The translations under genes were made by a program, and so were the position numbers. A stretch of 45,078 nucleotides of DNA from Willaertia magna (Eukaryota; Heterolobosea; Eutetramitea; Acrasida; Naegleriidae), in the NCBI GenBank assembly GCA_902984215.1, contig CADWAF010000251.1:1-45078 (forward strand), in the 5' to 3' direction. The notes beneath the pieces are model-generated. The model saw only the letters and a list, made by a program, of their open reading frames with translations, did no database searches and had not been told where the DNA came from. Shown here in pieces: positions 23,795-42,506 of this stretch (the stretch's first letter is position 1; every line of letters begins with the position of its first letter).

Positions 23795-26700
23795 ATGCCT
23801 GAACAAATTACTCTTGGATCTACCACAGCTCATACTAGCTCTATGGGCTTTAACCTTTCTCTATTGAAAGGTGGTACCATAACACAAACAATTTTAGGTG
23901 CAATCATCAGTTCCATGGTTGTTGTCGCTGTAGTAGTGACAATCGTCATGGTTTCAGTTAACGTTGGATTTAACCCACCTAACCCTAAAGATGATTATTT
24001 ACAAGTTTACAAGAATACACTCTATACTATTCAACCTTTATTAAACGATGCAGACCCAGCTCAAAGTAACTTAACTATTTTAAATGCAACCCAACCACAA
24101 TATGGCGCAGTTTATTTGAAGAGTAATACAGAACTAGTTTACATGTCAAACTATTATTATGCTGGTAATGATTCCTTTACTTACACTGTTTCTAATGGTT
24201 TCTTATCCGCTGTCGCAACTATTCATATTACCGTACTCAATCGTCCTCCAGAATTAATTCCATTGTACTATACCGTTAGTAAAAATAGTATCAACAATGT
24301 TTTTGATATTTTTAACTACGTTTCAGATGGTGGAGCAAAAATTACTGATCCTGATGCAGATATCTTAAGTATTGTTAATGTAACTGCTCCAAGTGTTGAA
24401 GGTTCTACTTTTACTTTTAATGACCAAAGAATTTTATATACTCCTCGTCCTGAATTCAACCAAGAAGATACTTTTAATTATACAGTTTCCGATAGAAATA
24501 CAACTGTAACAAATACTATCACTATTAAAATTATTAATGATGCTCCAGTAGCAAGACCAGATTCTTATACTATACCAAAGAATAAAATCGCAATACTTGA
24601 TGTTTTATTAAACGATTATGATCCAAATGGAGATAATATCACTTTAGTTAGAGAAGAAAGTGGTCAAGGAGGTATGGGTTCAGTACTTATTGCAGACGAT
24701 TTAAGATCCATCACTTATATTCCAACAACTACCGCAAAGCCTTACGTAGATGCATTTGATTACTCTATTACTGATTCCGATTTAAAGGCTTCAAGTTATG
24801 TTTTCGTTAGTGTTATTAACACTCCACCAGTAGCAAAAGACGAAACTATTAAGATTCCAAAAAATTCCGAAAATAATACTATTGTATTAACTTATAGTGA
24901 TGCTGATATTTTAGATGTTTTAACTTTATCTATTACAACTCCTCCTGCTCGTGGTTCATATGTTTTAAATAAGAAGGAAACATCAAAGAACGTTTTATAT
25001 TTACAACAAGAATGGGTTGTCATTACTGACAATCAATATAAATTAGAATATACTCCACAAAAAGGTGGTGCATACAGTGATAAGCTCGTTTATAAAGTAA
25101 CTGATGGTTATGACACTGTTTCCGCAACAGTTAATATTGAAGTTGTCAACACTGCTCCAGTTGCAGTTGATGATCATGCAGAATGTGCAAAGAATGGTGA
25201 AATTATTGTTAATGTTTTAGAAAATGATTATGATATTAATGGTGATGCAATTTTATTAGCAACTGAAGGTTTTATTTCTAGATCAGCACATGGTACTTTA
25301 TACAGAATTAATGATACCCATGTCAAATATGTTCCAGACCATGGTTTCTTAGGTCAAGATACTGCAAATTACATTGTTAGAGATACTAGTACTGATGGTT
25401 CTCCATCCTTAACCTCAACAGGTAATTTAATTGTTAAAGTCACAAATACTCCTCCTGTAGCTGTTGATGACTCCCTTACTATTCCAAAAGGTTTAGTTGC
25501 AACCTTAGATATCTTAGTTAACGATTATGATCCAAATGGAGATGATGTATTTTTCAATAATACTGATGGTCAAGTTACCACTCAAGGCATTACCCTTAAA
25601 GTTGTTGCTCCAGTTCAAACTAAAAAGATTTCTGCTCAACAAAATAGACAAACATTAGAATATGCAGCACTCCCTGATTTATACAAAGATTCATTTACTT
25701 ATGCAATTTATGATGTAGATGGAGGTATTTCTAATGTTGCAAGTGTCTCAATTAATATTATTAACACCCCTCCAACCCCAGTTGATGATACTGCTACTAC
25801 TCATTGGAATACATCTGTAGTTGTTGATGTTTTAGCAAATGATAAAGATGAAAATCCAGGTGATTTAGCCAGATTATTTGTAACAAGAGTTGAAGCTATT
25901 AATGTTGGTGCTACTGCATCAATTTTCGAAGGAGGAAAAAAGATTTTAGTCACCCCAACCCTTGGTTTTACAGGTACTTTCCAATTCAGATATTATATTA
26001 GTGACTCATATGATGAAAGTAAAACTTCTGCAACTGTAACTGTTGCTATTACAAATGAAGCTCCTGCACCAGTAGATGATACCGCATCAGTTCATTGGAG
26101 AGATGGTTCAATTGTTATTGATGTTTTAAGCAATGATGTAGATGTTGATCCAATCTTTATTCAATCATTTACTCAACCAGCACATGGACAAGTCGAAAGA
26201 GCAACTATTGGTCAAAAAGATGCATTAAAGTTCACAATTCCTGCAACAGATAAATTCGTTGGTACAGTTACATTCACATATGTTGTGTCAGACAGTCAAT
26301 TAACGGCAACCGCTACCGTTACAGTAACAGTAACAAATGCAGTACCAGTAGCAAATACAGATTCAGCAAATCTCCACTGGAATACTGCTTCTTTCGGTAT
26401 AGATGTATTATCAAACGACAAAGACGATAACTCTGATCCATTAAGTATTGTAAATGTAGATCCAAATCAAATTGTTAAAGGTCAAATTTCAACTGATGGA
26501 AAAACTGTTACATTTAAACCAACAACATTCAAAGGCGAACAAACAATTCCATATACCATCACTGACGGACCTGCAACTGCAACATCATCCATTTTAATTA
26601 CCACAACAAACAACGTTGTTCCACAACCAAAGACTTTAGAATATACTGTACACTGGTCTACACAAACAACTGGTACATCAATTCCATTATTTACTTCAGC

Positions 26701-29700
26701 ATCACCAAGAGATGAAGATGGTGATTTACTTGTTGCAAAGAATTTAGTTCAAGCAACTAATGGTAATGCAGTTTTAAATGCAGCTGATGCAACTACCCCA
26801 CAAACTATTGTATACAAACAAAATGCAAATTATTTAGGTACTGACACTTTCACTTTTGACATTACTGATGGTTTAGATACTGCAACAACAACTGTTAAAT
26901 TTACTATTTACAATAATGAACCTGTTGTTAAACCAGCAGCTGAAACATTCCACTGGAAACAAGCAAAAGACGGAGTAACAAGAGATTCAATTGCATTATG
27001 TCAAGTAACTGACAGTGATAAGGAAGATACCGTCTCTTTAGTTAGTGTTTCAACCATTGACGCACAAACACAAGGTACTATTACAAAATCTGGAAATCAA
27101 GTAACCTTCACTCCAAAATCAGGATTTGTTGGAACTGTAACAATTACTTTAACTTTCACTGATGGTCTCAAACAAGTACCAACTACTTGGTCAATTACCG
27201 TTCAAAATGCTGAACCTGTTGCAACACCTTTCCCAACAACTTTACATTGGTCAACACCTTTCGTTTATGTTGATGTTTTAAGTCAAATTACTGATTCTGA
27301 TTCTGTTGATACCGTAACATTCACAGTTACCTCTGTTGCAACACCTCAAGGAACTCCTTCTTTAGTAACTGTCAATAACAAACAAGTAGTTCAATGGACA
27401 GTCCCAACTACTAATAATATTCCGCAACCAACAGTTGGCGCTACAACCTTTACTATTAGCTATACAGATGGTTGGATAACTAAAACTGCAACTTACCCAG
27501 TAACTGTAACAAATACTGATCCTACTGCTGAAGACGTCACTGTTTCAACTCATTGGAAATCATATGCAGAAGGTATTTTAATTGATGTATTAGCAACCGC
27601 TAAAGATACTGATGCTGAAGATACTGTTACCTTAACTACTAGTCCATTCACTACACCTTCAAATGGTGCTGTTACATTAAAAGACAACAAAGCTTTATAC
27701 AAACCAACTCAAGGTTTCGTAGGAACTGATAGTTTCAAATATAGTGTTACTGACGGCTTAAAGACTATTACAAAGACAGTAACTGTAAACGTTGTAGATG
27801 CAATTCCAGTTTCTAATCCAGATACTGTTTCTGTCCACTGGGCCTCTACAGATGTTCAATTGAATGTTTTATCAAATGACAAAGATGATGATACACAAGA
27901 TATTTTATCTATAGATACAACCACCTTAACCCAACCAACTGCAGGTAGTTCATCAATTGTTGATGCAACTGTTGGTACTGTAAAATATACATTAGCTGCA
28001 AATCCAACTTTAGGAGATGTCACATTTACTTATAAAGCAACTGATGGCGCAAAATCTTCAACAACCCCTGCAACAGTAACAGTCACAATTACTAATACTG
28101 ATAAACCAGTCGCAAATCCATTATCTCAAACGGTACATTGGAGAACTTCCCAAGCTGGAATTACTTATAGTGTTTACAATACTGCTAAAGATTCTAATGG
28201 TGATACTATTACTTTAAGTTTAGTTAGTAATGATAATGGTGCATGTACAATTACTGGTACAGATATCAAAACAATTGCATTCCAACAAACAGCAACTGGA
28301 GATCACGTTTGTACATACAAACTTTCTGATGGTAAAGAAGAAGCACAATCAACTGTTACTACAACTATCACAAATGCTCAACCAACTGCTTCAAATCTTA
28401 ATTATGATTTCCACTTTACTATGTTAGAAACTGGTTTAGAAATTGATTTATCTGAAGTAATTGCAGATACCGATGTTGCTGATGTTGAATTCTTGAAAAT
28501 TAAATCATTCTCTCCATCTGCCCACTTTGGAAATTGCATTACAAAAGTTAGTGATACCAAGTTCAATTATAATCCAAAGAATAGTATTACAGAAAATACT
28601 GATGATACCTTTACTTACACAATAACCGATGGCCAAACAACTTCTGAAACTTATACAATTAGTATTCACATTGGTAGTACAGAAGCAAAATCAACAGATC
28701 AATTATATAAAGTACATTGGAGAACTTATGAAAACGCTGCAACATTCCAATTATTACAAAACGTAACTGAAACTTCTGGTTTGACAAATACTTTAACTAC
28801 CATCACACTCAATCCTGATAAACAAGGAACAGTAACAATTTCTGCAGATAAGAAGTATGTTACTTATAAACCAAAACAAGGTTTTGTAGGTACAGAAAAA
28901 TTCAATGTAGGTTATACAAATGGAGTTGTTAGTCCAACAATTTATGTAACTGTAACTGTTTATGATAACGCTCCAACTGCTCCAGCATTAACTGGTACAA
29001 CTCATTTCCGTGATGAAATTAATATCAATTTATTAGAGAAGACAACTGATGCTGATTCTGAAGATTCTGGTAAATTAACTGCTTCTTTTACAAGTCCTGC
29101 TACCTCTTATGGTACTATTACAACTGTTTCAACAGGTGTAATTAAATTCACACCATCAACCGCTGCAAATGCTCCAATTGGTACTGTCTCTTTCACTTAT
29201 ACAATTACTGATGGTAAACTCTCCACTACTGGTCCTGTTACAATTACAGTAACCAATACTCCTCCAACTACTGGTATTAAATCTTTAAATGTTTTATGGA
29301 GAACATTCAAGAATACTGGTGCAGTTTTCACACCAAAATCATTGTCACCTGTAGATACTGATGCAAATGCAAAGGATATTGCAAATCTTAAAATTTCTTC
29401 CCCAACAACAACCGTTGGTACTGTTTCTCTTGCAACTGATACCATTACAGTACAATACACAACTCAGCCATACAAAGGACCTGTTACTGTTACATATCAA
29501 TTAACTGATGGTGCATCAAATGGTAAAGTAACTGGTACTGTCAATCTTAATGTTTATAATACTAAACCAGTTGCAAATCCAGATACCGCAACTACAAAAT
29601 GGAATGTTGCTCAATTAGATATCCCAGTACTTACTAATGACGTAGATGGTGATAGTGATCCTTTAACTGTTACAAGTGTTACCGATAACTTTGCAACCTC

Positions 29701-32700
29701 AGCTCCAACTATTCAATCTGGAACAACCGTTAGATATTACCCAAAGACTGCCCCATTAGGTACTACTACTTTCACTTATATTGTTTCTGATGGTTTTGAA
29801 ACAGCTGAAGGAAAAGTCACTGTTACAATTACAAACGCAAAACCTGTTGTAAAGAGTTATGATGTAACAAAGAAATGGAATGAAGCAAAACCAGGTTTAG
29901 TATTCAATGTTCTTGCTGATGCAACTGACGCAGATGGAGATTCCCTAACATTGACTTCAGTTTCAAAACTTTCCTCCTCTCTAGAAGGAACTTTAACAAA
30001 TGATGGTTCAAAGATTACTTATACCCCAGCTCAAGGTTATACTGGTACTGTTACTTTAATTACTTATACAATTTCTGATGGTCGTGAAGAATCTACTGGT
30101 ACTATTAAGATCACAGTAACAAATGATGCCCCAACTGCTGATACTACTGCGTACACTTATCACTGGCGTCAAGCATTGGCTGGACAAGCTATTGATTTAA
30201 CTTCAAGATTAACTGATGCAAATAGTGATACTGTTACCATTGTCTCAGTAACTACTCAAAGTACTGCTGCTACAGTTCAATGGAATTCTGGAACAAAAGT
30301 TGTCAATTATAAGACTAAACAAGCTTGGAAAGGTACTGATTCATTCACAGTAACATTCACTGATGGATGGGCACAAAAAACTGCTGTATTCACAGTTCAA
30401 GTAACAAATAATATTCCTGTTATCAAAGCAATTACAAAGACTATCAAACACACTGAAGCATTAAATTATGCTTTAACCATTGTAGGTTCAAGTGATTCAA
30501 GCATTGCACCAACTGATGCAGACACTGCAGATTCTTCATTATTAACTATTTCTTCTATAGGTGTTCCAGCAAAAGGTTCTGCAACAATTTCACAAGACTC
30601 TAAATCAATTACGTTTGCCAATACTGCAGGTAACCTCAACACAGTATCATTCTCTTATTCAATTACTGATGGTTTAGATACAGTCTCAAGTACTATTACA
30701 ATTAATATTGTAGATCAAGCACCAACAGCAAACAACTTTGACAAGACTTATCACTGGTATGTCATCAGAGGCGGAGTAGATATTAATTTATTAACTGGAT
30801 CAAGTGCAAGTGACCCTGATGGAGATACCTTAAAAGTTATTTCTGTAGTTCAACCAACCAATGGTCAAGTAACCCTTAAAGCAGATGCAGCAACAATTAC
30901 TTATACACCACCAACCAACAGAGCTCCAATTAATGATGTAGTTACCTTTAAGATTTCTGACGGAAGCATTTCAATTGATAAAACTCTTAATATCTATATT
31001 ACAAATGCAGCACCAGTTGCAAATCCAGATACTGTTACAAAATTATGGAGAGAAACTTCATTTACTATTTCTCCATTAGATAATGATGTTGATTCAAATT
31101 CTGATCCAATCACAATTACCTCAGCTTCAGGTTCAAAAGGTACCTTGACTATTTCTCAAGATAAGAAGACTATCGCATATAACTATGGTGGAACCAAAGG
31201 TGTTTTCTCTGAAATAATTACCTATACCATTACAGATGGTCCAGCAACTTCCACTTCAACCATCACAATAGATTTCATTAATACTGCCCCAACAACTCAA
31301 GATTTATCTGTATCCACTAAATGGAATTCTGCAGTTGCTGTTACTGGTTTATTAAGCAAATGTACTGATTCAAACAATGATCCATTAACCTTCCAAGGAG
31401 TTGATCCTGCAAGTAAAGGAACAGTTACTGTTACTAACGCTCAATTAGGTGATACTAGTTACACCCCAAGTACTTTAATTACTTATACAAGTAAACCATC
31501 AAATGGTGCATGGTCAACAACAGACTCATTCAATTATAAATGTTCTGATGGTTTAGTAACATCTACAGGAAAAGTTTCAGTAACAATTACTAATACTCCT
31601 CCAACATGTGTAAACAAGGCAAAGACTGTCACAAGAGATTATAACAATCCAAATGTTCAAATTACCTCAGCTGAATTATTAACCGGAGCAACAGATGCAG
31701 ACTCAGATTCCCTTTCCGTTAGTAGCGTAGCTTTAGTAGCAGGTTCTGATAGTCAATCCTCAGTTATCCTACAAGGTTCAAACGTTGTTTTCTCTTATGG
31801 TCCATCCTACTCTGGTGTTCAAACATTTACCTACACTGTCACTGATAAACAACTTACTGCAACCTGTAATTACGTAGTTACAATTGAAAATCCAAAGTTA
31901 ACTTGTGCAGATTATACAATTACATGTTCAAAGAATGATGGTGCAATTGATTTCTCTGCTGATATTAGATCTAAGAACCAAGCACTTAACACTCAAGATT
32001 CCAGTCCAAAGTATTTCACTATCACTAATATTTCACCATTACAACAAGTTGGTACTATTTCATCCTCATTAGTGTATACCCCAACAAAGACTCGTTCATG
32101 TACTGGAAATGTTTGTTACGCAACTTATGATTATAGTAATAGTGCTGGTCAAAAATCAACATGTAAGATTATAATCAACCAATCAAATACTGCTCCAACA
32201 GCTCCAAATTGGTCATACACTTACTCAGCAAGAAGAGATGGAACTCTCTCATACACTTTAGATTACTTAAATGATGCAAATCCTCGTGACACTGATACAG
32301 CAGACACAGTCTCATTAAGTGGTATTCCAAATGTTGGAACCTGTGGTTCAAGTGCTGTAACAAGTATTACAATTTCAAATGGTAAAATTGTTGTTGTTAG
32401 AAATAATAACTTTATTGGAACTTGTTCCTTCACTGTACGTGTTACTGATTCAGATCAATTATCACCATTAACTGCAGATGCCACAGTAACAATTACTTTC
32501 ACTACAACCCCACCAAATGCTGTAGATGATTCTTACACAACTGACTACAATACAGATATTGATATCACTGCTTCAAGTATTTTATCAAATGATTATGATA
32601 ATTTAGGTGGTACTTTCACTGTTAATAGAATTATTTGTCCTGATGCTACTTATTGTACTCATGGTACCCCAACAATTTTAAATCCTTCTGATAATCCAAA

Positions 32701-34474
32701 TAACTGGATTATTCGTGTTGCAAAGAAGCTTGGCAGTTGTGATACTGAAAAGTTCCAATATGAAATTAAATCAGCACAAGATGGTTCAGTAGATATTGCA
32801 ACAGTCTATGTTAGATATGTTAATTGCGTTTGTACTAACAAGAACTTCGATATTGTATTCGTTTTAGATGGTTCAGGTTCAATCTCGTCAACTAATTGGA
32901 AGAGTATGAAATATTTCATTGGTAATATTACTAAAGGTTTCTCAATTTCTACAACTAAAACACAAATTGGTATTGTCCAATATTCCACCAACTCAAGAAC
33001 AGAATTAGATTTAAATACAGGAACTTCCCTTTCATATGTTCAATCAGAAGTTGCTGCATTATCACAAATGGGTTCAAGTACAAATACTATTTCTGGTGTT
33101 GACGCAGGTATTACAATGATGGTGAACCAAGGTCGTGATTCTATTAAAGATAAATTAGTTATTCACGTAACTGATGGTGAAAGTAATTTACCTTGTTCTT
33201 GTACTGATTGCGAGAGTTATTATGGCTTGTACTCTACTACCACACCAATGGGTAATACTTGTTTATCAAAGAGATTCCCTGGTAAGACTTGTACTAATTG
33301 TAACTGGAATGATGCTAATTCCAAATGTATGCCTTGTGGTGAAGCAGTTACAAGAAGCTTGCAAATAAATTCCTGGAAATCCGGTAATAGTCAAAATCCT
33401 GAAGCATCAAAGACTTGGAATTGGAGACAAATCGCTGTAGGTATTGGTTCTGGTGTTACTGCCGCATTTGGTCAAATGCAAATTTCTAAAATGAATTACG
33501 ATCCATTCAGATTTATTATGGTTGACTGGAATGATTTGTCTGGTGCATATCAAACAATTATTGATGAAGCTTGTAATACTGTCAGTTCAGCTGTAGCTTA
33601 TGCTCAAAGACCAATTGGCGATTCTGAATACAAAGTTCAATATGTTGGTAAGACTCTCACAAATTCTGGTAGAACACAATTTGGTAAAACATTTGTTTAT
33701 TCTACATTTACTTACAAAGTTTCTGTTGCCGCAGGTGGTAAAGCATTAAAGAGATTTACTGTAGCAATGGATACCACTGATGTAAGAAATATTTATACAA
33801 GTTCTCCAGTATTCCCAGTTTTCTATGGTACAGATGCTGTTTCTGGATATGAAGGTTTTACCTTCGAATCTTTACCAAAGACTACAGATTATATCACTGC
33901 TGTTGGTCAAACTGGAACTTATTCAATTTCTGTTTATGGTGATGTTCCAGAAGGTACTGTTAACTTTGCTGTTCAAGGAGGTTCTTCATATAGTTTAGGT
34001 ACTACTCTAGGTCCTGTTGGTTCCTTTGATTTAGATAATGTTCCTATTGATGGTATAGATGGTATTACTGTTTTAGCAACAAACAATGGCTGCTTTAATG
34101 GATATGGTTGTTATGCATATTATAAGTTATCAACTACAGTAAATTACCAAATTGCACAAAGAATTTGTTACAAACTAAATGGAGGACGTATTGCGACTAT
34201 CAAAACATCACAAGAAAAATCAAATATTGTATCAGTTATCCCAGTAACATCCGATAGTGTCGCCTTCTTTATTGCTCTTAACCGTGTTACATCTGGTTCT
34301 TCCTCATGGGCCTGGATTTATGATGGTGCTTCAACTTCCTCTTTCTCTGACTTCCAGTCAACTTCTGGTACCTCCAACCGTGTCGCAATAGCACAAAAAG
34401 CTAACAATTACAAATGGACTGCTGTATCAACCACTAATGCATATCAATACGTTGTCTGTAACTACAATTATTAA
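23795..34474 (+). CDS. Giant surface adhesin: cadherin-like repeats, vWA and C-type lectin domains
   Basis: A single uninterrupted exon of 10.7 kb encodes 3,559 residues. Residues about 33-55 form one membrane span after a short polar start, so the protein should sit N-terminus inside with its body outside. About 30 repeats of roughly 98 residues fill 60-3012, each with an Asp-rich calcium-type loop (for example DVLSNDKDD), a TYTITDG turn and a TVTVTITN end; they resemble the cadherin-like/Big_9 tandem repeats of bacterial giant adhesins. A von Willebrand A domain follows at about 3019-3230 with a full MIDAS set (DGSGS, a Thr and an HVTDGES Asp), then a spacer, and a C-type lectin domain closes the protein from about 3432 (CYAYYKL, ICYKLNGGRIATI, SWAWIYDG, VVCNY). 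This predicts a long stalk with a ligand-binding tip for prey, surface or cell contact. The lectin lacks an obvious EPN or QPD sugar motif. Confidence 0.93.
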   Translation: MPEQITLGSTTAHTSSMGFNLSLLKGGTITQTILGAIISSMVVVAVVVTIVMVSVNVGFNPPNPKDDYLQVYKNTLYTIQPLLNDADPAQSNLTILNATQPQYGAVYLKSNTELVYMSNYYYAGNDSFTYTVSNGFLSAVATIHITVLNRPPELIPLYYTVSKNSINNVFDIFNYVSDGGAKITDPDADILSIVNVTAPSVEGSTFTFNDQRILYTPRPEFNQEDTFNYTVSDRNTTVTNTITIKIINDAPVARPDSYTIPKNKIAILDVLLNDYDPNGDNITLVREESGQGGMGSVLIADDLRSITYIPTTTAKPYVDAFDYSITDSDLKASSYVFVSVINTPPVAKDETIKIPKNSENNTIVLTYSDADILDVLTLSITTPPARGSYVLNKKETSKNVLYLQQEWVVITDNQYKLEYTPQKGGAYSDKLVYKVTDGYDTVSATVNIEVVNTAPVAVDDHAECAKNGEIIVNVLENDYDINGDAILLATEGFISRSAHGTLYRINDTHVKYVPDHGFLGQDTANYIVRDTSTDGSPSLTSTGNLIVKVTNTPPVAVDDSLTIPKGLVATLDILVNDYDPNGDDVFFNNTDGQVTTQGITLKVVAPVQTKKISAQQNRQTLEYAALPDLYKDSFTYAIYDVDGGISNVASVSINIINTPPTPVDDTATTHWNTSVVVDVLANDKDENPGDLARLFVTRVEAINVGATASIFEGGKKILVTPTLGFTGTFQFRYYISDSYDESKTSATVTVAITNEAPAPVDDTASVHWRDGSIVIDVLSNDVDVDPIFIQSFTQPAHGQVERATIGQKDALKFTIPATDKFVGTVTFTYVVSDSQLTATATVTVTVTNAVPVANTDSANLHWNTASFGIDVLSNDKDDNSDPLSIVNVDPNQIVKGQISTDGKTVTFKPTTFKGEQTIPYTITDGPATATSSILITTTNNVVPQPKTLEYTVHWSTQTTGTSIPLFTSASPRDEDGDLLVAKNLVQATNGNAVLNAADATTPQTIVYKQNANYLGTDTFTFDITDGLDTATTTVKFTIYNNEPVVKPAAETFHWKQAKDGVTRDSIALCQVTDSDKEDTVSLVSVSTIDAQTQGTITKSGNQVTFTPKSGFVGTVTITLTFTDGLKQVPTTWSITVQNAEPVATPFPTTLHWSTPFVYVDVLSQITDSDSVDTVTFTVTSVATPQGTPSLVTVNNKQVVQWTVPTTNNIPQPTVGATTFTISYTDGWITKTATYPVTVTNTDPTAEDVTVSTHWKSYAEGILIDVLATAKDTDAEDTVTLTTSPFTTPSNGAVTLKDNKALYKPTQGFVGTDSFKYSVTDGLKTITKTVTVNVVDAIPVSNPDTVSVHWASTDVQLNVLSNDKDDDTQDILSIDTTTLTQPTAGSSSIVDATVGTVKYTLAANPTLGDVTFTYKATDGAKSSTTPATVTVTITNTDKPVANPLSQTVHWRTSQAGITYSVYNTAKDSNGDTITLSLVSNDNGACTITGTDIKTIAFQQTATGDHVCTYKLSDGKEEAQSTVTTTITNAQPTASNLNYDFHFTMLETGLEIDLSEVIADTDVADVEFLKIKSFSPSAHFGNCITKVSDTKFNYNPKNSITENTDDTFTYTITDGQTTSETYTISIHIGSTEAKSTDQLYKVHWRTYENAATFQLLQNVTETSGLTNTLTTITLNPDKQGTVTISADKKYVTYKPKQGFVGTEKFNVGYTNGVVSPTIYVTVTVYDNAPTAPALTGTTHFRDEININLLEKTTDADSEDSGKLTASFTSPATSYGTITTVSTGVIKFTPSTAANAPIGTVSFTYTITDGKLSTTGPVTITVTNTPPTTGIKSLNVLWRTFKNTGAVFTPKSLSPVDTDANAKDIANLKISSPTTTVGTVSLATDTITVQYTTQPYKGPVTVTYQLTDGASNGKVTGTVNLNVYNTKPVANPDTATTKWNVAQLDIPVLTNDVDGDSDPLTVTSVTDNFATSAPTIQSGTTVRYYPKTAPLGTTTFTYIVSDGFETAEGKVTVTITNAKPVVKSYDVTKKWNEAKPGLVFNVLADATDADGDSLTLTSVSKLSSSLEGTLTNDGSKITYTPAQGYTGTVTLITYTISDGREESTGTIKITVTNDAPTADTTAYTYHWRQALAGQAIDLTSRLTDANSDTVTIVSVTTQSTAATVQWNSGTKVVNYKTKQAWKGTDSFTVTFTDGWAQKTAVFTVQVTNNIPVIKAITKTIKHTEALNYALTIVGSSDSSIAPTDADTADSSLLTISSIGVPAKGSATISQDSKSITFANTAGNLNTVSFSYSITDGLDTVSSTITINIVDQAPTANNFDKTYHWYVIRGGVDINLLTGSSASDPDGDTLKVISVVQPTNGQVTLKADAATITYTPPTNRAPINDVVTFKISDGSISIDKTLNIYITNAAPVANPDTVTKLWRETSFTISPLDNDVDSNSDPITITSASGSKGTLTISQDKKTIAYNYGGTKGVFSEIITYTITDGPATSTSTITIDFINTAPTTQDLSVSTKWNSAVAVTGLLSKCTDSNNDPLTFQGVDPASKGTVTVTNAQLGDTSYTPSTLITYTSKPSNGAWSTTDSFNYKCSDGLVTSTGKVSVTITNTPPTCVNKAKTVTRDYNNPNVQITSAELLTGATDADSDSLSVSSVALVAGSDSQSSVILQGSNVVFSYGPSYSGVQTFTYTVTDKQLTATCNYVVTIENPKLTCADYTITCSKNDGAIDFSADIRSKNQALNTQDSSPKYFTITNISPLQQVGTISSSLVYTPTKTRSCTGNVCYATYDYSNSAGQKSTCKIIINQSNTAPTAPNWSYTYSARRDGTLSYTLDYLNDANPRDTDTADTVSLSGIPNVGTCGSSAVTSITISNGKIVVVRNNNFIGTCSFTVRVTDSDQLSPLTADATVTITFTTTPPNAVDDSYTTDYNTDIDITASSILSNDYDNLGGTFTVNRIICPDATYCTHGTPTILNPSDNPNNWIIRVAKKLGSCDTEKFQYEIKSAQDGSVDIATVYVRYVNCVCTNKNFDIVFVLDGSGSISSTNWKSMKYFIGNITKGFSISTTKTQIGIVQYSTNSRTELDLNTGTSLSYVQSEVAALSQMGSSTNTISGVDAGITMMVNQGRDSIKDKLVIHVTDGESNLPCSCTDCESYYGLYSTTTPMGNTCLSKRFPGKTCTNCNWNDANSKCMPCGEAVTRSLQINSWKSGNSQNPEASKTWNWRQIAVGIGSGVTAAFGQMQISKMNYDPFRFIMVDWNDLSGAYQTIIDEACNTVSSAVAYAQRPIGDSEYKVQYVGKTLTNSGRTQFGKTFVYSTFTYKVSVAAGGKALKRFTVAMDTTDVRNIYTSSPVFPVFYGTDAVSGYEGFTFESLPKTTDYITAVGQTGTYSISVYGDVPEGTVNFAVQGGSSYSLGTTLGPVGSFDLDNVPIDGIDGITVLATNNGCFNGYGCYAYYKLSTTVNYQIAQRICYKLNGGRIATIKTSQEKSNIVSVIPVTSDSVAFFIALNRVTSGSSSWAWIYDGASTSSFSDFQSTSGTSNRVAIAQKANNYKWTAVSTTNAYQYVVCNYNY

Positions 34475-34805: not shown

Positions 34806-37800
34806 TTAGTCATTGTTTTGACTTCTATAATAAACACCTCTTCCTCTTGTATTGTATTGTCTGCCACCCCCTCTAGCTCCACCTCTTCCTCTTTCTCCAC
34901 TAAAATTGTTGCTTCTTTTCTTTTGAGTATTTTCATTCTTATTAACATCATTTTGAGTAACTTCTTCTTGTTGAGCTAATTGTTTCATCTTCTTCTCCTT
35001 TTTATTCTTCTTTTGAATGTTTTCAATTAACTTTTCAATTTGTTTTGTTTGAGAATCTTCTGCTTGTAAAACACTTGTTGTTATAGTTGTTGTTGTAGAT
35101 TCTGTATGTACTTTCTTTCCAATATGTGATATTTGTGCTTTTAATAGTTTCTTAGAAATAAATTCTTGTTTTAAACCTTGATCATATTCCCATACATTAT
35201 ACACAATAACATCAAATGGAATACTTTCTGTATATACATCTAAATCAACTAATACCTTCTTTAAACGTTTTAATTCAATACTTCTATTCAATGGATCTGC
35301 TAATTGTTCTTGATCATTACCTTGTTGTTGTTGTGGATTAGTCCATGTTATAGTAAATTGATTAACAATTGATGTCACTTTCTTATTTGGATTAGTTGCT
35401 TCTTCACCACTATCAATATTACTTTTAGAACAAACCATTAAGATATCTTGTGGTATTTCTTCTTCTAAACTTAATTCTTCAACACTTAAATTAGTTGGTG
35501 CTGGAGAGAAATGTTTCATTACATTAACTTGTACTTCTAAATCATATTTTGGTATAAATACAGTGAATGCTCTTTTACCCATTGATAGAACAATTGCTTC
35601 TACACGTTCAACTCTTCTACTAATAATTGGTAATAAATAATTTGTTAAATAATGTTTTTCACAATCATCTTGAGCTAATCTTGCACGATAAGCTTGATCA
35701 TTAATATGTTCAGCTAATTCTGTTAATTCTTGATAAGTTAATGAAGTTGGTTGACGTTCATCCTTCTCTGTAGTAATTGTTCCACTCTTTTGATCTCTTA
35801 ACATTGTCAATAAACTTCTATGAACAATTAAATCAGCATATCTACGAATAGGAGAAGTAAAGTGAGTATAATATTGTTTTCCTAAAGCAAAATGCCAAGT
35901 TTTAGTTTCAGTATTTTCACAAGCCCCAACAGTTGAATATTGAGCTAATTGCATTTCTCTTAAAAGTATGTGTTGTACAGTTCTTTGAAGATATGAATAT
36001 TTACTTGTATTTTCAACTAATTGATTAATAACTACTTGAATAGGAATTTCAATGTTACGCAACATATCAAATATAAAGAGTTTCTCTCTTTCAATCTTTA
36101 AATTCTCTTCTTCCATATTAGATGGTTGTTGTTTTGCAATTATTTCCTTTTTAAATCTACAAATATTAATTGCTAAAATTGCAACAGTTAATGTCCATTT
36201 CTCACGTTTTGGAGAAGAATGGAAACGAATGAATGCACTCTTTCCAAAATGGTTATATAATGCAGTAGCTGCTAATTCATTTGCAATTAACATAAATTCT
36301 TCAATTAAAATGTGTGATTCATTATGTTCATCATTTTGGAATGATGTTGGATAACCATTTTCATTACAATCGAAACGTAATTGTTCATTTGCAAGGAAAA
36401 TACTTCCAGTTGTTGCACGGATATGACGAACCTTTTGAGCTAATTCATTGAATCTTAAAACATCTTTACAAACATCTTCAAATTTGAAATCACCATAAAC
36501 TTCAGGGATTTCTTCTTTAGTTAATCCATAGAATTTAGTGTCATCCTTATTTTCTTCCTTTTGAGATTCAATAATCTTTTGTACTCTGTCATAATCTAAT
36601 CTACAACAAGATTTAATTAATGTTCTTTCAAAGTGAATAGATTGTTGATCAATATTACATTTATCATCTATAATAAACTCAACACTTAATGCGAAACGGT
36701 TTACACCAGGATGTAAGCTACAAAGATTTTGAGATAATGATGGATCTAACATGTGTTCAACACTATTAACTAAATAAACAGAAGTTGCACGTTTTCTTGC
36801 CTCAATATCAGATGCATCACCTTCTTTAACAAATCTAGAGACATCAGCAATTGCAACTGTAACTAAATATTTTCCTTCTTCAATTTGTTCAATAGCAACT
36901 GCATCATCTAAGTCTCTTGAGGTTGTTGGGTCAATTGTGAAAATTCTTCTATTTCTCCAATCTTTATATTCTTTTAAGATTTCTTCATTATTTAATTCAA
37001 TATTACTATAAGTCTTATCTGATGATAATTCTGAAGTACTTAATGAAGGAGTATTATCTTGAATGGATTCCATGATTTTTGCATCTTTCACTTGTTCAAC
37101 CTTCATTGTAGATTCACGATTACGATCTTCTTTTCTTTTAGATAAAATATTATCAAATAGATTTGGTAAATGTTGTAATAAAATTGCACGTTTTTGTGAC
37201 CATAAATCACGTCTTAAACCTAATGTTCCAAGTAATCTACCTTTTGGATAAGATTGATTTCTCTTCCATGGATAAATAGCTTCAACTACAAATAAACATT
37301 GTTCCATTTCACTTGATCTTGTATTAAAAGCAACTTCAAATTCATCAAAGTTGACCATAATCTTAGGATATGCCTTATCAATAGGTATTAACCAACGATA
37401 TCCTTTTCCAATTTCATCTTGGGATAATAAAGTACAAGCAAAGAATACAGGTGACTTCTTTTTCAAAACTGCTACAACAGTTCCTGTGACAATAACATCA
37501 TCAGAATTTACGTGTTGTGTTTCTTCAGTAATAGCAGTAGTGGTATTTTCTTCTTGTGGTTTAGTAGTCTCACTTTCTTCAACACTACCTTCTTCACCTT
37601 CTTTAATAGCGTTCATAACTGAACCAGCAACTCTCTTTTGTGAGTTAATCTTAATTACAACTGTATCACCGTGCATAGCTCTGTTTCTTGCATTTAAACC
37701 ATCAATTAAAACATCTTTTTTCATACCTTCAACTGTCACATAAGCTTCAACAAAACGTTTCTTGTTGATACGTATTTCACCTTTAAATAACTCTCCTTTT

Positions 37801-40800
37801 TCGAGTCCCTTTTGTATTTCTTCTAAATCTATGTGTTCTTCATAATCAATTTGATTTCTCATTTGATAAATGTTGACAGCAGTAATTCCTTCGCGTTCTT
37901 CAATTAAATCTGATAACTTTCCTCCATTTAAAAGTATTTCATAAGCACGTTTAATTTCATTTACAATAACAGGACCCATTTCATTACTAATAACACCTCC
38001 CAAGTCTCTCAATTCGAAAGGATCTTCAAGAGAGATAATTGTATTTGACATCTTCTTTGGAACTGGTTTACCATTTTTAATAGAAATTGTTTGATTGTCA
38101 AAGTTAAACTTTGTTGCATAATATTCAAAGAAACCAAATAATAAATCTCCCAAAAGTAAAGATTTAGTTTGTTCTTGATTTGATGGTTGCCATATTTCAT
38201 GAAGTTTTTGTAAATTACCAAAGTATTTAGTGTTATATGCATTTACATTGTGAGGTAATGGAATATCTTCCTTTGAAATAAGTTGTTCTTTATCAACAAC
38301 TAAATTTTGTAAAGAAGGTACAATATCTAAACTTTGTAAATATTGAATAATCATTAAAACATATGAATAAGAAGATAAACTACCACTTGGAGGATCATTA
38401 ATGTGACGTTGTTTTGCCCACTTCTTAATATTAAATATTAAAGGCTTAATTCTATCATCAACTTGCATATAAGTTTGAATTAATTTTGAATTTACAACTC
38501 CCATAAACATTTGAATACAAATATCACAATCTAAATTACGTTTTCCATCATGAATCTTTAAAATTGGTACTCTACTACGAATAACTTCTTCTTTTGCACG
38601 TAAATATGGGAACCTCTCTTTAAATTTATCATTGTCTAATGATTTTCTTATTAAACCTAATAAACGTGATTGTACCTTGTTATTATCTTGAATGTTGTCT
38701 AATTCTTCAAATTTAATACAAATATCAATATCACTTCCACGCAAATTCAAACCATTTGCAGAAGATCCATAATGATATACTTTTGGAGGACTAACACCAA
38801 TATCCTTACTTTCTTCACTTGTAAATAATTCATTACAAATTTGTTCAATATCTTTAATTAATTCTAATTTTAATTTTTCTTCTTCTGGTGTTGGTTTTAA
38901 TTTATCTTCATAAAGTTCTAACATTTCATTTGTCAAATCTAATTTTCTAATATAATTAGATTTTTGTAATAAAGATAACTCTACATCTTTAGTAATAACT
39001 GTACTTTCTTCAATCTTTATAGTTTGTTCAGATGTTGCTGTAATAATTTGTTTTTCAATTTCTGATTTCATAGTTTCCATTATTGTTGTGTCTTCTTCAC
39101 CTTCTTCAACAACTGCATCTTCATTAATTTCTGATTCATCTGTACTTCTTTTAACAAATGGACCTAATGATGTTTCTCTTAATGCTAAATGTCTAACTTC
39201 ATCAATCTGTTTCATCCAACATAAAACATTTCTTTCATAAAACTTTGCAATATGGAAAGTTAATGAAGGATTAGTCATTAATAAGATTGCACATAAACTT
39301 TGAAGTTCCCATAACTTCATTAAACTATTGTTATCACTAACAAATGAAATTAAATGTTTTGGCAAATTAAAACTACAATACTTTAACATATCTAATAATT
39401 GTTTGTTTTGATCTAAATATGTTGTTAATGTATTTAAAACAAAATGAGTATTTTCCATCTTACGAATATTCATAGTTTTACCAAATTGTGAAATTGTATT
39501 CTTTGATGCATCAAATAATGCATCTTTTTTTAATTTCATTCTAATTACTTTTGCAACAATAAATAATATATCTTTAATTACTGATTGTGGTAATTTACTT
39601 GAATTTTCTTCTAAAGCAGTTAATAATGATTTAATTAAACTTTCTGGAATGGATCTATATAAGATATTTGGAATAATTTGATTACCCCTATTATCACGAC
39701 ATGTAGCTTGAATTAAAAATCTTACTGCTTCACCAATTTTCTTTTCAGCAATTAAATGTGTTATCCATTCTAAAAATTGCTTTTCTTTTTCTAATGCTTC
39801 TTCTTTTTCTTCATCTTGTTTATTGTTGTATTCTTGTTGTGGAATAATTTCAGTAGAAGATGATCTTGTTACTTTTTCCTCTTTAATTGTCACACCTGTT
39901 GGAGTAGTAACCTCTGTCTTTTCTTCTACCTTCTTTTCAACAACTGTAACTATATTATTTGTTAATACTGGTTGAGTTTGCTTAACCACAGTTGGTTGTT
40001 GTTGAATTGTTTGTTGAGTGTTATTATCAAAATCTACTGATTTAACAGAAGTACTTGATTGTGGTGTATTTGCAGGGGTACTTGGTAAACTACCACCAGT
40101 ATTACTTACACTAGCGTTATCAGTAGTGGATAATAAATTACTATTTTTAGCTAAAATCTTTAATTGTTTCTTTTTTGCCTTTTCAATTTTATTTTCCATG
40201 CTTTTTGTAATCTCTTCAACTTTCTTTAATTCTCTTTCATAAAAATCTTTCTTTTCTTTAATTTTATTTGAAAATATTTTAAATTGTTCTAAAACTAAAT
40301 TCTTATGATTTACTGATTTACAATTATTATTAAATACTTCCATTATATTTTTTCTAATATTTTCATATTTATTTTCAACAATTGAATTTAGAGATAATTC
40401 TTTTCCTAGAAGTGTTTCACTTAAGCTTAGAATTTCTTTTTCTTCTTCTTCTTTTGTTTCTTCATGTTGTTCAATTACTTGTTGTGATAATAAAGGTGTG
40501 TTGTTATCTAAAGGCTTAATTTCTTCTTCTTCAATATTTTGTTGTTGATCTGATTTTTTCTTTCTATAATAAACTGGAGGCTCAACATGAGATCTTCTAC
40601 TTCTATTGTTGTTATTACTACCTCCTCTAGATGAAGAATGATGATTATTATGACCTCCTCTGTGATAGTGAGGTTGATGATGATGAGAACTAGATGATGA
40701 CGAACTACTATATGATTCATTATCATCATAATCTACATATTGATCGGAGTTACTATTTCTTCGGTTTCCTCCACCTCTACTTTTTCTATGTGTGCCACTA

Positions 40801-40820
40801 CTACTTCCTCTTGAATACAT
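34806..40820 (-). CDS. RNA terminal nucleotidyltransferase fused to DIS3L2-type exoribonuclease
   Basis: A single exon encodes 2,004 residues. An N-terminal Ser/His/Gly/Gln-rich part and a helical region of unknown type (about 365-570) lead into a Cid1/TUT-type nucleotidyltransferase: GSSANGLNLRGSDIDI at about 687 with the first two catalytic Asp, the third in LDCDICI near 765, a GSLSSYSYVLMIIQYLQ helix, and LEDPFELRDLG in the nucleotide-recognition loop near 935. Directly after it come two cold-shock-type domains (from about 1010), an RNB exonuclease domain with the four-Asp block FTIDPTTSRDLDDA near 1298 and THFTSPIRRYADLIVHRS near 1650, and an S1-like domain. No PIN domain precedes the cold-shock part, which is the DIS3L2 rather than DIS3 layout. 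The tail is an RGG box. The protein should both add nucleotides to RNA 3' ends and degrade RNA from 3' to 5', probably in the cytoplasm. Both active sites look intact. Confidence 0.93.
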   Translation of the reverse strand: MYSRGSSSGTHRKSRGGGNRRNSNSDQYVDYDDNESYSSSSSSSSHHHQPHYHRGGHNNHHSSSRGGSNNNNRSRRSHVEPPVYYRKKKSDQQQNIEEEEIKPLDNNTPLLSQQVIEQHEETKEEEEKEILSLSETLLGKELSLNSIVENKYENIRKNIMEVFNNNCKSVNHKNLVLEQFKIFSNKIKEKKDFYERELKKVEEITKSMENKIEKAKKKQLKILAKNSNLLSTTDNASVSNTGGSLPSTPANTPQSSTSVKSVDFDNNTQQTIQQQPTVVKQTQPVLTNNIVTVVEKKVEEKTEVTTPTGVTIKEEKVTRSSSTEIIPQQEYNNKQDEEKEEALEKEKQFLEWITHLIAEKKIGEAVRFLIQATCRDNRGNQIIPNILYRSIPESLIKSLLTALEENSSKLPQSVIKDILFIVAKVIRMKLKKDALFDASKNTISQFGKTMNIRKMENTHFVLNTLTTYLDQNKQLLDMLKYCSFNLPKHLISFVSDNNSLMKLWELQSLCAILLMTNPSLTFHIAKFYERNVLCWMKQIDEVRHLALRETSLGPFVKRSTDESEINEDAVVEEGEEDTTIMETMKSEIEKQIITATSEQTIKIEESTVITKDVELSLLQKSNYIRKLDLTNEMLELYEDKLKPTPEEEKLKLELIKDIEQICNELFTSEESKDIGVSPPKVYHYGSSANGLNLRGSDIDICIKFEELDNIQDNNKVQSRLLGLIRKSLDNDKFKERFPYLRAKEEVIRSRVPILKIHDGKRNLDCDICIQMFMGVVNSKLIQTYMQVDDRIKPLIFNIKKWAKQRHINDPPSGSLSSYSYVLMIIQYLQSLDIVPSLQNLVVDKEQLISKEDIPLPHNVNAYNTKYFGNLQKLHEIWQPSNQEQTKSLLLGDLLFGFFEYYATKFNFDNQTISIKNGKPVPKKMSNTIISLEDPFELRDLGGVISNEMGPVIVNEIKRAYEILLNGGKLSDLIEEREGITAVNIYQMRNQIDYEEHIDLEEIQKGLEKGELFKGEIRINKKRFVEAYVTVEGMKKDVLIDGLNARNRAMHGDTVVIKINSQKRVAGSVMNAIKEGEEGSVEESETTKPQEENTTTAITEETQHVNSDDVIVTGTVVAVLKKKSPVFFACTLLSQDEIGKGYRWLIPIDKAYPKIMVNFDEFEVAFNTRSSEMEQCLFVVEAIYPWKRNQSYPKGRLLGTLGLRRDLWSQKRAILLQHLPNLFDNILSKRKEDRNRESTMKVEQVKDAKIMESIQDNTPSLSTSELSSDKTYSNIELNNEEILKEYKDWRNRRIFTIDPTTSRDLDDAVAIEQIEEGKYLVTVAIADVSRFVKEGDASDIEARKRATSVYLVNSVEHMLDPSLSQNLCSLHPGVNRFALSVEFIIDDKCNIDQQSIHFERTLIKSCCRLDYDRVQKIIESQKEENKDDTKFYGLTKEEIPEVYGDFKFEDVCKDVLRFNELAQKVRHIRATTGSIFLANEQLRFDCNENGYPTSFQNDEHNESHILIEEFMLIANELAATALYNHFGKSAFIRFHSSPKREKWTLTVAILAINICRFKKEIIAKQQPSNMEEENLKIEREKLFIFDMLRNIEIPIQVVINQLVENTSKYSYLQRTVQHILLREMQLAQYSTVGACENTETKTWHFALGKQYYTHFTSPIRRYADLIVHRSLLTMLRDQKSGTITTEKDERQPTSLTYQELTELAEHINDQAYRARLAQDDCEKHYLTNYLLPIISRRVERVEAIVLSMGKRAFTVFIPKYDLEVQVNVMKHFSPAPTNLSVEELSLEEEIPQDILMVCSKSNIDSGEEATNPNKKVTSIVNQFTITWTNPQQQQGNDQEQLADPLNRSIELKRLKKVLVDLDVYTESIPFDVIVYNVWEYDQGLKQEFISKKLLKAQISHIGKKVHTESTTTTITTSVLQAEDSQTKQIEKLIENIQKKNKKEKKMKQLAQQEEVTQNDVNKNENTQKKRSNNFSGERGRGGARGGGRQYNTRGRGVYYRSQNND

Positions 40821-41021: not shown

Positions 41022-42506
41022 TTATTGTTTTGCCCAACCTTCTTCAACTAAACTTTTAACAATTTGCCATCCTCTGTGACCAATTATTGGATTTTCAACA
41101 TTAGATAATTCATCAGCTAATTGATTTGCAGCTAACCCAGTTGGAATGTTCTTTTCCTTTGAAGCTTGTAAAATCTTTGAAACAATAACAAAAACTGAAT
41201 TATCCCAATCCCTACCAAAATGTCTATAAATTGCTTCGTCATGAGCAATATAACCAAAAACTTCATTTGCACAATTGACAATACCCATTCTATTATTAAC
41301 ATAATCTGGAACATAAATAATTCCTCTTTCTTGTAACATTTTATCATGAACAACAGGATCTAATAATTGATTATTTGCTGCACCACAAACTATCTTACAA
41401 TTTAATTTTGGAATAGTTGTTGAATTTAAAATACCTCCTAAAGCTGAAGGTGCGAAAATATCACAAGGTTCTTCAAAGATACTTAAATCACCTGGTTCAA
41501 CAACTTTTAATTGGACATTTGGATGATTTTTAAATTGTTCTCTTCTCTTTTCAATTAATTTTGGATCAATATCAGTTGCGATAATTTGTCCTGCATTTCT
41601 CTTAACTAATTCTTCAATAATATAAGATGCAACATTTCCGGCACCTTGAACTACAATCTTCTTACCAGTTAAATCTCCCAAGCCTAAAAAATTAACAGCA
41701 GCCTCCATACCACAAACTGTTCCGATTGCAGTAAAGGATGAAGGGTTTCCAGAACCTAATGGTGGTGATAAACAACTAACAAATCTAGATTTAGTATACA
41801 TTCTATCGCAATCCTTTGTTGTTAAACCAACATCTTCTGCTCCATAATATCCTCCCTTTAAACTTGTTAAGAATTCACCATATTCGGAGAAGATAACATC
41901 TCTTACTTTATCATCACTATAATCAACATTAGCATTTGTCTTTTGAACTATACCTTTACCACCACCCCAATATAAACCTGCTAATGCATTCTTTCTAGTC
42001 ATACCTAAAGATAAACGTAATCCGTCTCTTACATAGTCTTCCATGTTATTATATTTCCAGAATCTAACACCACCCTATTATTTTGTTAATAATGACATAG
42101 TTCAGTAAATTATTTTCAAAATTATACTTACGTGTGGAATACCTCTATTTGATTTGTGTAAGAATGCTGCAAAAAGTAAACCACTTTTTGGTCCAATTTG
42201 GAAGAAGACACCTTCGTGATTTAAAAAGTCTCTTTTATCGTTAGTGATGAATTTACCTAAATCTTCAAAAAGTGGGTGGCTAGCAATTAATTTCTTTTCT
42301 TTTGCATCATAAACAATATATCCACGTGTAATTCCTTCCTTTTTCATTTCTTCTTGGAATTGTTCTGGTGATAATGCACTTGTATTTGTAGCTACAAAGT
42401 GATTATTTGTTATAGAGAAATTTCTAGAAATATTACTAGTAAATAATGGTTTATTGAAAATAGATTGTTTGCATTTGAAAACAGATGAGATGGTATTCTT
42501 CAACAT
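41022..42506 (-). CDS. Leucine/phenylalanine/valine dehydrogenase-like enzyme, mitochondrial (two exons)
   Basis: Exon 1 is 42132-42506 and exon 2 is 41022-42074, joined by a 57-nt intron (GTAAGT donor, TAATAG acceptor) and giving 475 residues. The enzyme should oxidise a branched-chain or aromatic amino acid to its keto acid with NAD. The catalytic domain has MTRKNALAGLYWGGGKG with the substrate Lys153 and catalytic Lys165, GAEDVGLTTKDCD, a Rossmann motif VVQGAGNVASYI, APSALGGILN, CGAANNQL and PDYVNNRMGIVN. These follow bacterial leucine dehydrogenase rather than eukaryotic glutamate dehydrogenase in size and motifs. The first 40 residues are basic and rich in Ser/Asn/Phe with no acid, a mitochondrial leader. 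About 65 residues between leader and domain are longer than in bacterial enzymes. Exact substrate is open. Confidence 0.9.

Follow-up and report, generated by a model that had tools for sequence, protein, structure and literature searches.

The DNA analysed here is a 45,078-nt stretch of the Willaertia magna genome (the window). On its minus strand, at 34806..40820, lies an intron-free open frame of 2,004 codons, whose product joins a Cid1-type terminal nucleotidyltransferase (TENT) to a DIS3L2-type RNB exoribonuclease in one polypeptide. A homologue search in which 7,991 candidates were scored gave 290 matches at E<=1e-5, and among the 120 of these that were listed we found 17 proteins (P0002-P0018) carrying both enzyme halves; statements about the fusions refer to this set. 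The features of the gene are as follows, with the residues of the protein and the basis of each assignment.

34806..40820, minus strand: complete fusion gene, 2,004 codons (open frame, no intron)
39816..40820, minus strand: N-terminal low-complexity part with a Ser/Arg/Gly/His-rich start, residues 1-335 (sequence; poorly conserved in the 17 fusions)
39165..39815, minus strand: all-helical domain, residues 336-552 (AlphaFold2 model; moderate conservation)
38463..38933, minus strand: nucleotidyltransferase palm, MTPAP-like_central, residues 630-786 (Pfam PF22600, E 4.7e-24; fold matches)
38010..38153, minus strand: PAP_assoc (central/fingers) domain, residues 890-937 (Pfam PF03828, E 1.3e-12)
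37995..38027, minus strand: nucleotide recognition motif (NRM), E932-D-P-F-E-L-R-D-L-G-G942 (motif alignment)
37824..37994, minus strand: conserved linker joining both enzymes, residues 943-999 (occupancy and conservation over the 17 fusions)
37632..37823, minus strand: cold-shock domain 1 (CSD1), Rrp44_CSD1, residues 1000-1063 (Pfam PF17216, E 2.4e-7)
37170..37400, minus strand: cold-shock domain 2 (CSD2), OB_Dis3, residues 1141-1217 (Pfam PF17849, E 2.8e-10)
35796..36965, minus strand: RNB exoribonuclease domain, residues 1286-1675 (Pfam PF00773, E 4e-86)
36903..36932, minus strand: RNB Asp block DPTTSRDLDD, residues 1297-1306 (pattern in 17/17 fusions)
35181..35600, minus strand: probable S1-like C-terminal domain, about residues 1741-1880 (weak Dis3l2_C_term match, predicted beta strands)
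34836..34898, minus strand: Arg-Gly-rich C-terminal tail, residues 1975-1995 (sequence)

At the base composition of the window, the chance of an open stretch this long is approximately 10^-68. Third-position GC stayed between 0.06 and 0.18 across the 20 full 100-codon bins of the frame, including the bin that holds the junction, and in the 64-codon junction the remaining two minus-strand frames hold 7 and 9 stops. The initial annotation had described a single intron-free frame, and both the open-frame reading and the even codon-position signal agree with it. That annotation had also considered that a hidden frame error might have joined two genes. However, the same protein is present in the public W. 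magna set from a different assembly (P0002, NCBI ABK040_005756, on a 1.0-Mb contig), with 2,004 of 2,008 alignment columns identical and the other four being gaps. Sixteen further fusions are known, including one from Percolomonas cosmopolitus (P0014; taxid 63605, Heterolobosea) labelled MMETSP, and the codon-position signal is unbroken through the junction. We take the MMETSP label to denote a transcriptome collection; if so, both halves lie on one assembled transcript in that organism. An assembly or frame error that merged two genes, the probability of which we consider negligible, was thus ruled out, and the covalent fusion of two enzymes, with both sets of catalytic residues intact, is confirmed at the sequence level.

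The identity of the catalytic residues is well established in both enzyme families. In the TENT half, the palm carries a GS motif at residues 685-686 and an Asp triad (D697, D699 and D766), which, together with the PAP_assoc domain, are the features of a Cid1-type terminal nucleotidyltransferase, as first claimed; PF22600 and PF03828 were matched in all 17 fusions (E<=0.1). The RNB domain of the nuclease half contains Asp residues D1297, D1303, D1305 and D1306. A profile search of both halves had been suggested, and it returned the palm, PAP_assoc, CSD1, OB_Dis3 and RNB in this order. Structure prediction, also suggested and carried out on parts of the chain, gave a TENT fold matching TUT7, URT1, CutA and Cid1 and a nuclease fold whose closest PDB matches are DIS3L2, as they are by sequence. 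Among proteins of solved structure, the TENT half is closest in sequence to TUT4, with GLD2 and URT1 next.

The initial annotation had called the nuclease layout a complete DIS3L2 layout. This held for the two cold-shock domains, the four-Asp RNB domain and the position in the tree, and no PIN family was found at E<=1. The S1 domain after RNB was seen only weakly: Pfam Dis3l2_C_term gave E 0.11 in the window protein and E<=0.1 in 8 of the 17 scanned fusions (the region being present in 16), and the C-terminal model, which stops at residue 1800, has beta strands from approximately residue 1743. In a first RNB tree, which contained long rows (L019 and SSD1 of Ophiostoma), the fusions fell in the DIS3L2 branch with support of 93/95. 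A revised tree, which held 13 of the 17 fusions and further DIS3L2s and from which L019, both SSD1 rows and several others had been dropped, gave 97/91 for the same placement. Grouping the fusions with DIS3/DIS3L1, an alternative tested after the tree was known, had a p-AU (approximately unbiased test) of 0.029, and a sister relationship of the fusions and the W. magna DIS3L2, with a p-AU of 0.43, was neither shown nor rejected. These comparisons place the nuclease half among the descendants of the DIS3L2 branch.

The segment between the two enzymes is itself conserved. Residues 961-1000 had a mean occupancy of 0.97 and a majority conservation of 0.52 over the 17 fusions, and the spacing from NRM to CSD1 was 77-82 residues in the 12 fusions with a CSD1 pattern match. 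This bears on the idea of co-delivery alone, in which both enzymes would be brought to one place through the helical domain or through the RG-rich tail, with the two sites acting on different RNAs and exchanging no ends. The moderate conservation of the helical domain ahead of the TENT half and the presence of the RG-rich C-terminal tail speak for such a role, but the near-constant length of the linker exceeds what tethering requires, and we regard co-delivery alone as very improbable. The AlphaFold2 model of the helical domain (m8c5dc0124643) shows ten helices within model residues 2-217, with predicted local distance difference test (pLDDT) values of 77-90 in most 10-residue blocks and lower values in three; the structure matches listed all fall in the TENT part. 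No Pfam family beyond those of the two enzymes was common to more than one fusion among the 25 listed of 36. One fusion, P0012 (EukProt gene452-6863_t; 2,494 aa), carries a RING zinc finger (PF13920), and its Cys-rich C-terminal stretch fits a RING.

It had been suggested that the same fusion be sought in other heteroloboseans, and it was found in Naegleria species and in P. cosmopolitus. An organism is given for six of the 17 fusions, namely W. magna, Naegleria lovaniensis (two proteins), N. fowleri, N. gruberi and P. cosmopolitus; the public annotations read 'hypothetical protein', 'RNB domain-containing protein' or 'ribonuclease II family protein'. The second N. lovaniensis copy, P0011 (C9374_012743), is shorter, at 1,226 aa; both active sites are present, the N-terminal part is missing, and the chain stops shortly after RNB, perhaps a limit of the gene model. 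Two further, blunt searches, which scored only candidates sharing most words, recovered 11 and 16 of the 17 known fusions and no new one. The former failed to recover even P0011, one of its query rows, and the latter listed 120 of 7,096 matches, and rarer or more distant fusions may lie outside the matches recovered. Among IMG/VR viral contigs, 81 stretches fit both patterns, none of them coding for a relative of the fusion.

All 17 fusions formed a single clade in the RNB tree of 52 rows (support 100/100), and the fusions also formed a single clade in the TENT tree of 40 rows (support 98/99). P0018 was the deepest fusion in both trees, and close pairs agreed in both; the trees disagreed on how the deeper groups branch and on the placement of P0011. 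Because the trees of both halves each give one fusion clade, a single old fusion event followed by vertical descent within Heterolobosea is likely. A spread wider than Heterolobosea is possible, given that organism names are available for only six of the 17.

A scan of the W. magna genome (19.2 Mb in 894 contigs, a draft that may be incomplete) gave eight RNB profile matches at seven places, the fusion gene among them. These include a PIN-bearing DIS3 (L016), a DIS3L1 (L018; 634 bits against human DIS3L1) and a stand-alone DIS3L2 (L017; 390 bits against human and 389 against mouse Dis3L2) with an intact Asp block, which fell on the DIS3L2 side of the revised tree, nearest to the fusions and on a long branch. 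Replacement of a sole DIS3L2 by the fusion was ruled out by L017; since W. magna has this separate DIS3L2, the fusion is an extra, dedicated unit alongside the usual enzyme. Three more divergent RNB proteins (L019, L020 and L021) did not match the strict four-Asp pattern and are candidate RNase II/Dss1-like enzymes, or inactive ones. Three loci with PAP_assoc were found, namely the fusion gene, L022 and L023; a further locus, L024, had a sub-threshold palm match only. L022 (987-2948, minus strand) best matches URT1 and has Phe at the position of the UTP-selecting His (DPFELDFNVAR), L023 is Trf4-like and has no His there when aligned to yeast Trf4, and this His was therefore absent from all three PAP_assoc genes found in the genome.

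In Cid1, a His in the NRM (H336) selects UTP, and its substitution by Ala or Asn gives a poly(A) polymerase (PMC4605311, PMC4357723). His is absent from this position in all 17 fusions. Their loop reads DPFE-x-R-D-LG throughout, with E in place of D in P0010, and is one residue shorter than that of TUT4 (DPFDLN-H-NLG) or URT1 (DPFETS-H-DLG); GLD2 has Asn at the His site. Only in P0011 is x a His (DPFEHRDLG), two residues ahead of Arg-Asp. Of 22 comparators, 21 showed the motif, and by eye seven had His (including three oomycete proteins), five had Arg (including Peronospora and Histoplasma proteins) and nine had other residues. The fusion loop recalls the Arg of the cytosine-preferring CutA of Aspergillus, in which R557 lies near the incoming base (PMC7498324); Arg938 of the window protein aligns with R557 or one position earlier, according to the placement of a one-residue gap. 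CutA differs from the fusion in having no nuclease part, and the loop of P0162, a fungal protein of the Arg group taken for a CutA relative (EPFNTS-R-NLG), is one residue longer than the fusion loop. Strict U addition is the option that the motif supports least, and base choice cannot be read from sequence.

These observations bear on the initial annotation's proposal that oligouridylation would mark RNA for the nuclease half, with a true uridylyltransferase handing oligo(U) ends directly to a U-selective DIS3L2 site. The proposal gains from the sequence similarity of the TENT half to TUT4 (then GLD2 and URT1) and from the DIS3L2 branch of the nuclease, a family known for acting on U-tailed RNA (PMC10023572), and the DIS3L2 assignment of the nuclease half stood. 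However, because the UTP-selecting His is missing from all 17 fusions, oligouridylation by the fusion is not established, and a separate DIS3L2 exists in W. magna; we consider the U-tail hand-off rather unlikely. The site of the human DIS3L2 U-contact residue N663, which we located via what we take to be the human sequence context, the horse protein P0210 serving to mark the site, does not decide the matter: it is His in 14 of the 17 fusions, including the window protein, and N, H, S, A, L or I among ordinary DIS3L2s. An argument for U-specificity from this site was dropped, since ordinary DIS3L2s vary there too.

In animals and fission yeast, TUT4/TUT7 or Cid1 and DIS3L2 belong to the same two families and carry out tailing followed by 3'-5' decay, but as separate proteins, whereas the W. 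magna fusion is a single chain, lacks the UTP-selecting His and coexists with a stand-alone DIS3L2. In bacteria, PAP I works with RNase R or RNase II, the tail serving as a landing site from which structured RNA is degraded 3'-5', with polymerase families other than that of the fusion. PNPase performs both jobs in one protein with one reversible site, in contrast to the two unrelated domains here. In the mitochondrial processome of trypanosomes, a TUTase (RET1) and a 3'-5' exonuclease (DSS1) cooperate, and in T. brucei uridylation ends the trimming of rRNA and guide RNA precursors by the complex that holds them (PMC6329795). By analogy, the fusion could act in RNA maturation, its nuclease trimming a precursor until an added tail stops it. 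Decay is already served in W. magna by DIS3, DIS3L1 and DIS3L2, which would leave room for such a role. The processome is a multi-protein mitochondrial complex, and the fusion a covalent DIS3L2-type protein. We judge a maturation role improbable, somewhat more so than the U-tail hand-off.

The reading towards which we lean, if only slightly, is that of a bifunctional 3'-end enzyme, a self-contained tail-and-degrade unit whose tail is perhaps not U. The TENT half would put a short untemplated tail on the RNA 3' end, and the DIS3L2-type half would pull this single-stranded extension into its RNB tunnel, degrading the RNA in the 3'-5' direction, the short conserved linker holding both sites on one molecule. 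An RNA whose end is not long enough for the nuclease, or too structured, could be re-tailed and retried without release. A stretch of seven single-stranded nucleotides is required before an RNA can reach the active site of human Dis3L2, and structured RNA is unwound from there (PMC10023572); the polymerase could supply such nucleotides and renew them whenever the nuclease stalls. We infer the activity of both halves, the order of tailing before degradation and the hand-off in cis, and likewise a tail that is not strictly U, with C, A or mixed tails being as likely as U.

Several points weigh against this tail-and-degrade reading. Loss of the His does not exclude U addition, since trypanosome TUTases select UTP without it, and the His of P0011 might substitute for the missing one. 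A short loop is also not unique to the fusions: the comparator P0142, which has two TUT-like domains, has a shortened motif of equal length (DPFELYDLG) at approximately residues 688-700, with Tyr replacing Arg. The RNB half alone could degrade untailed RNA. In CutA, single substitutions did not fully switch base choice (PMC7498324).

A bolder version, which we put forward tentatively and hold to be clearly less probable than a tail-and-degrade enzyme in general, is a single-chain 'write-then-erase' machine of Heterolobosea, in which a polymerase of altered base preference, making C- or A-rich tails in place of U tails, would keep rebuilding the 3' foothold of the enzyme's own nuclease. If true, structured RNA could be decayed without recourse to the TUT and DIS3L2 that exist as individual proteins. 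Research on tailing and on the decay that it directs deals with separate enzymes, and their encounter inside cells is hard to control. The natural fusion in Percolomonas, Naegleria and Willaertia implies a coupling worth one polypeptide, and with one purified protein hand-off, tail length and base choice could be measured. The altered nucleotide motif further offers a test of whether DIS3L2-type decay truly needs uridine. The initial annotation had known of no described fusion of this kind, and the enzyme families themselves are known. In the open-access PMC literature searched, neither their covalent join nor the altered motif is mentioned in any title or opening of an abstract that was returned.

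Two other loci of the window were noted. An uninterrupted frame of 3,559 codons at 23795-34474 (plus strand) shows 25 Ig-like (Big_9) matches together with a VWA domain, and its product is probably a very large adhesion protein. At 41022-42044 (minus strand) lies a Glu/Leu/Phe/Val dehydrogenase fragment, and the adjoining frame at 42102-42506 (minus strand) may be the first exon of the dehydrogenase gene, which would suggest a short intron near 42045-42101.

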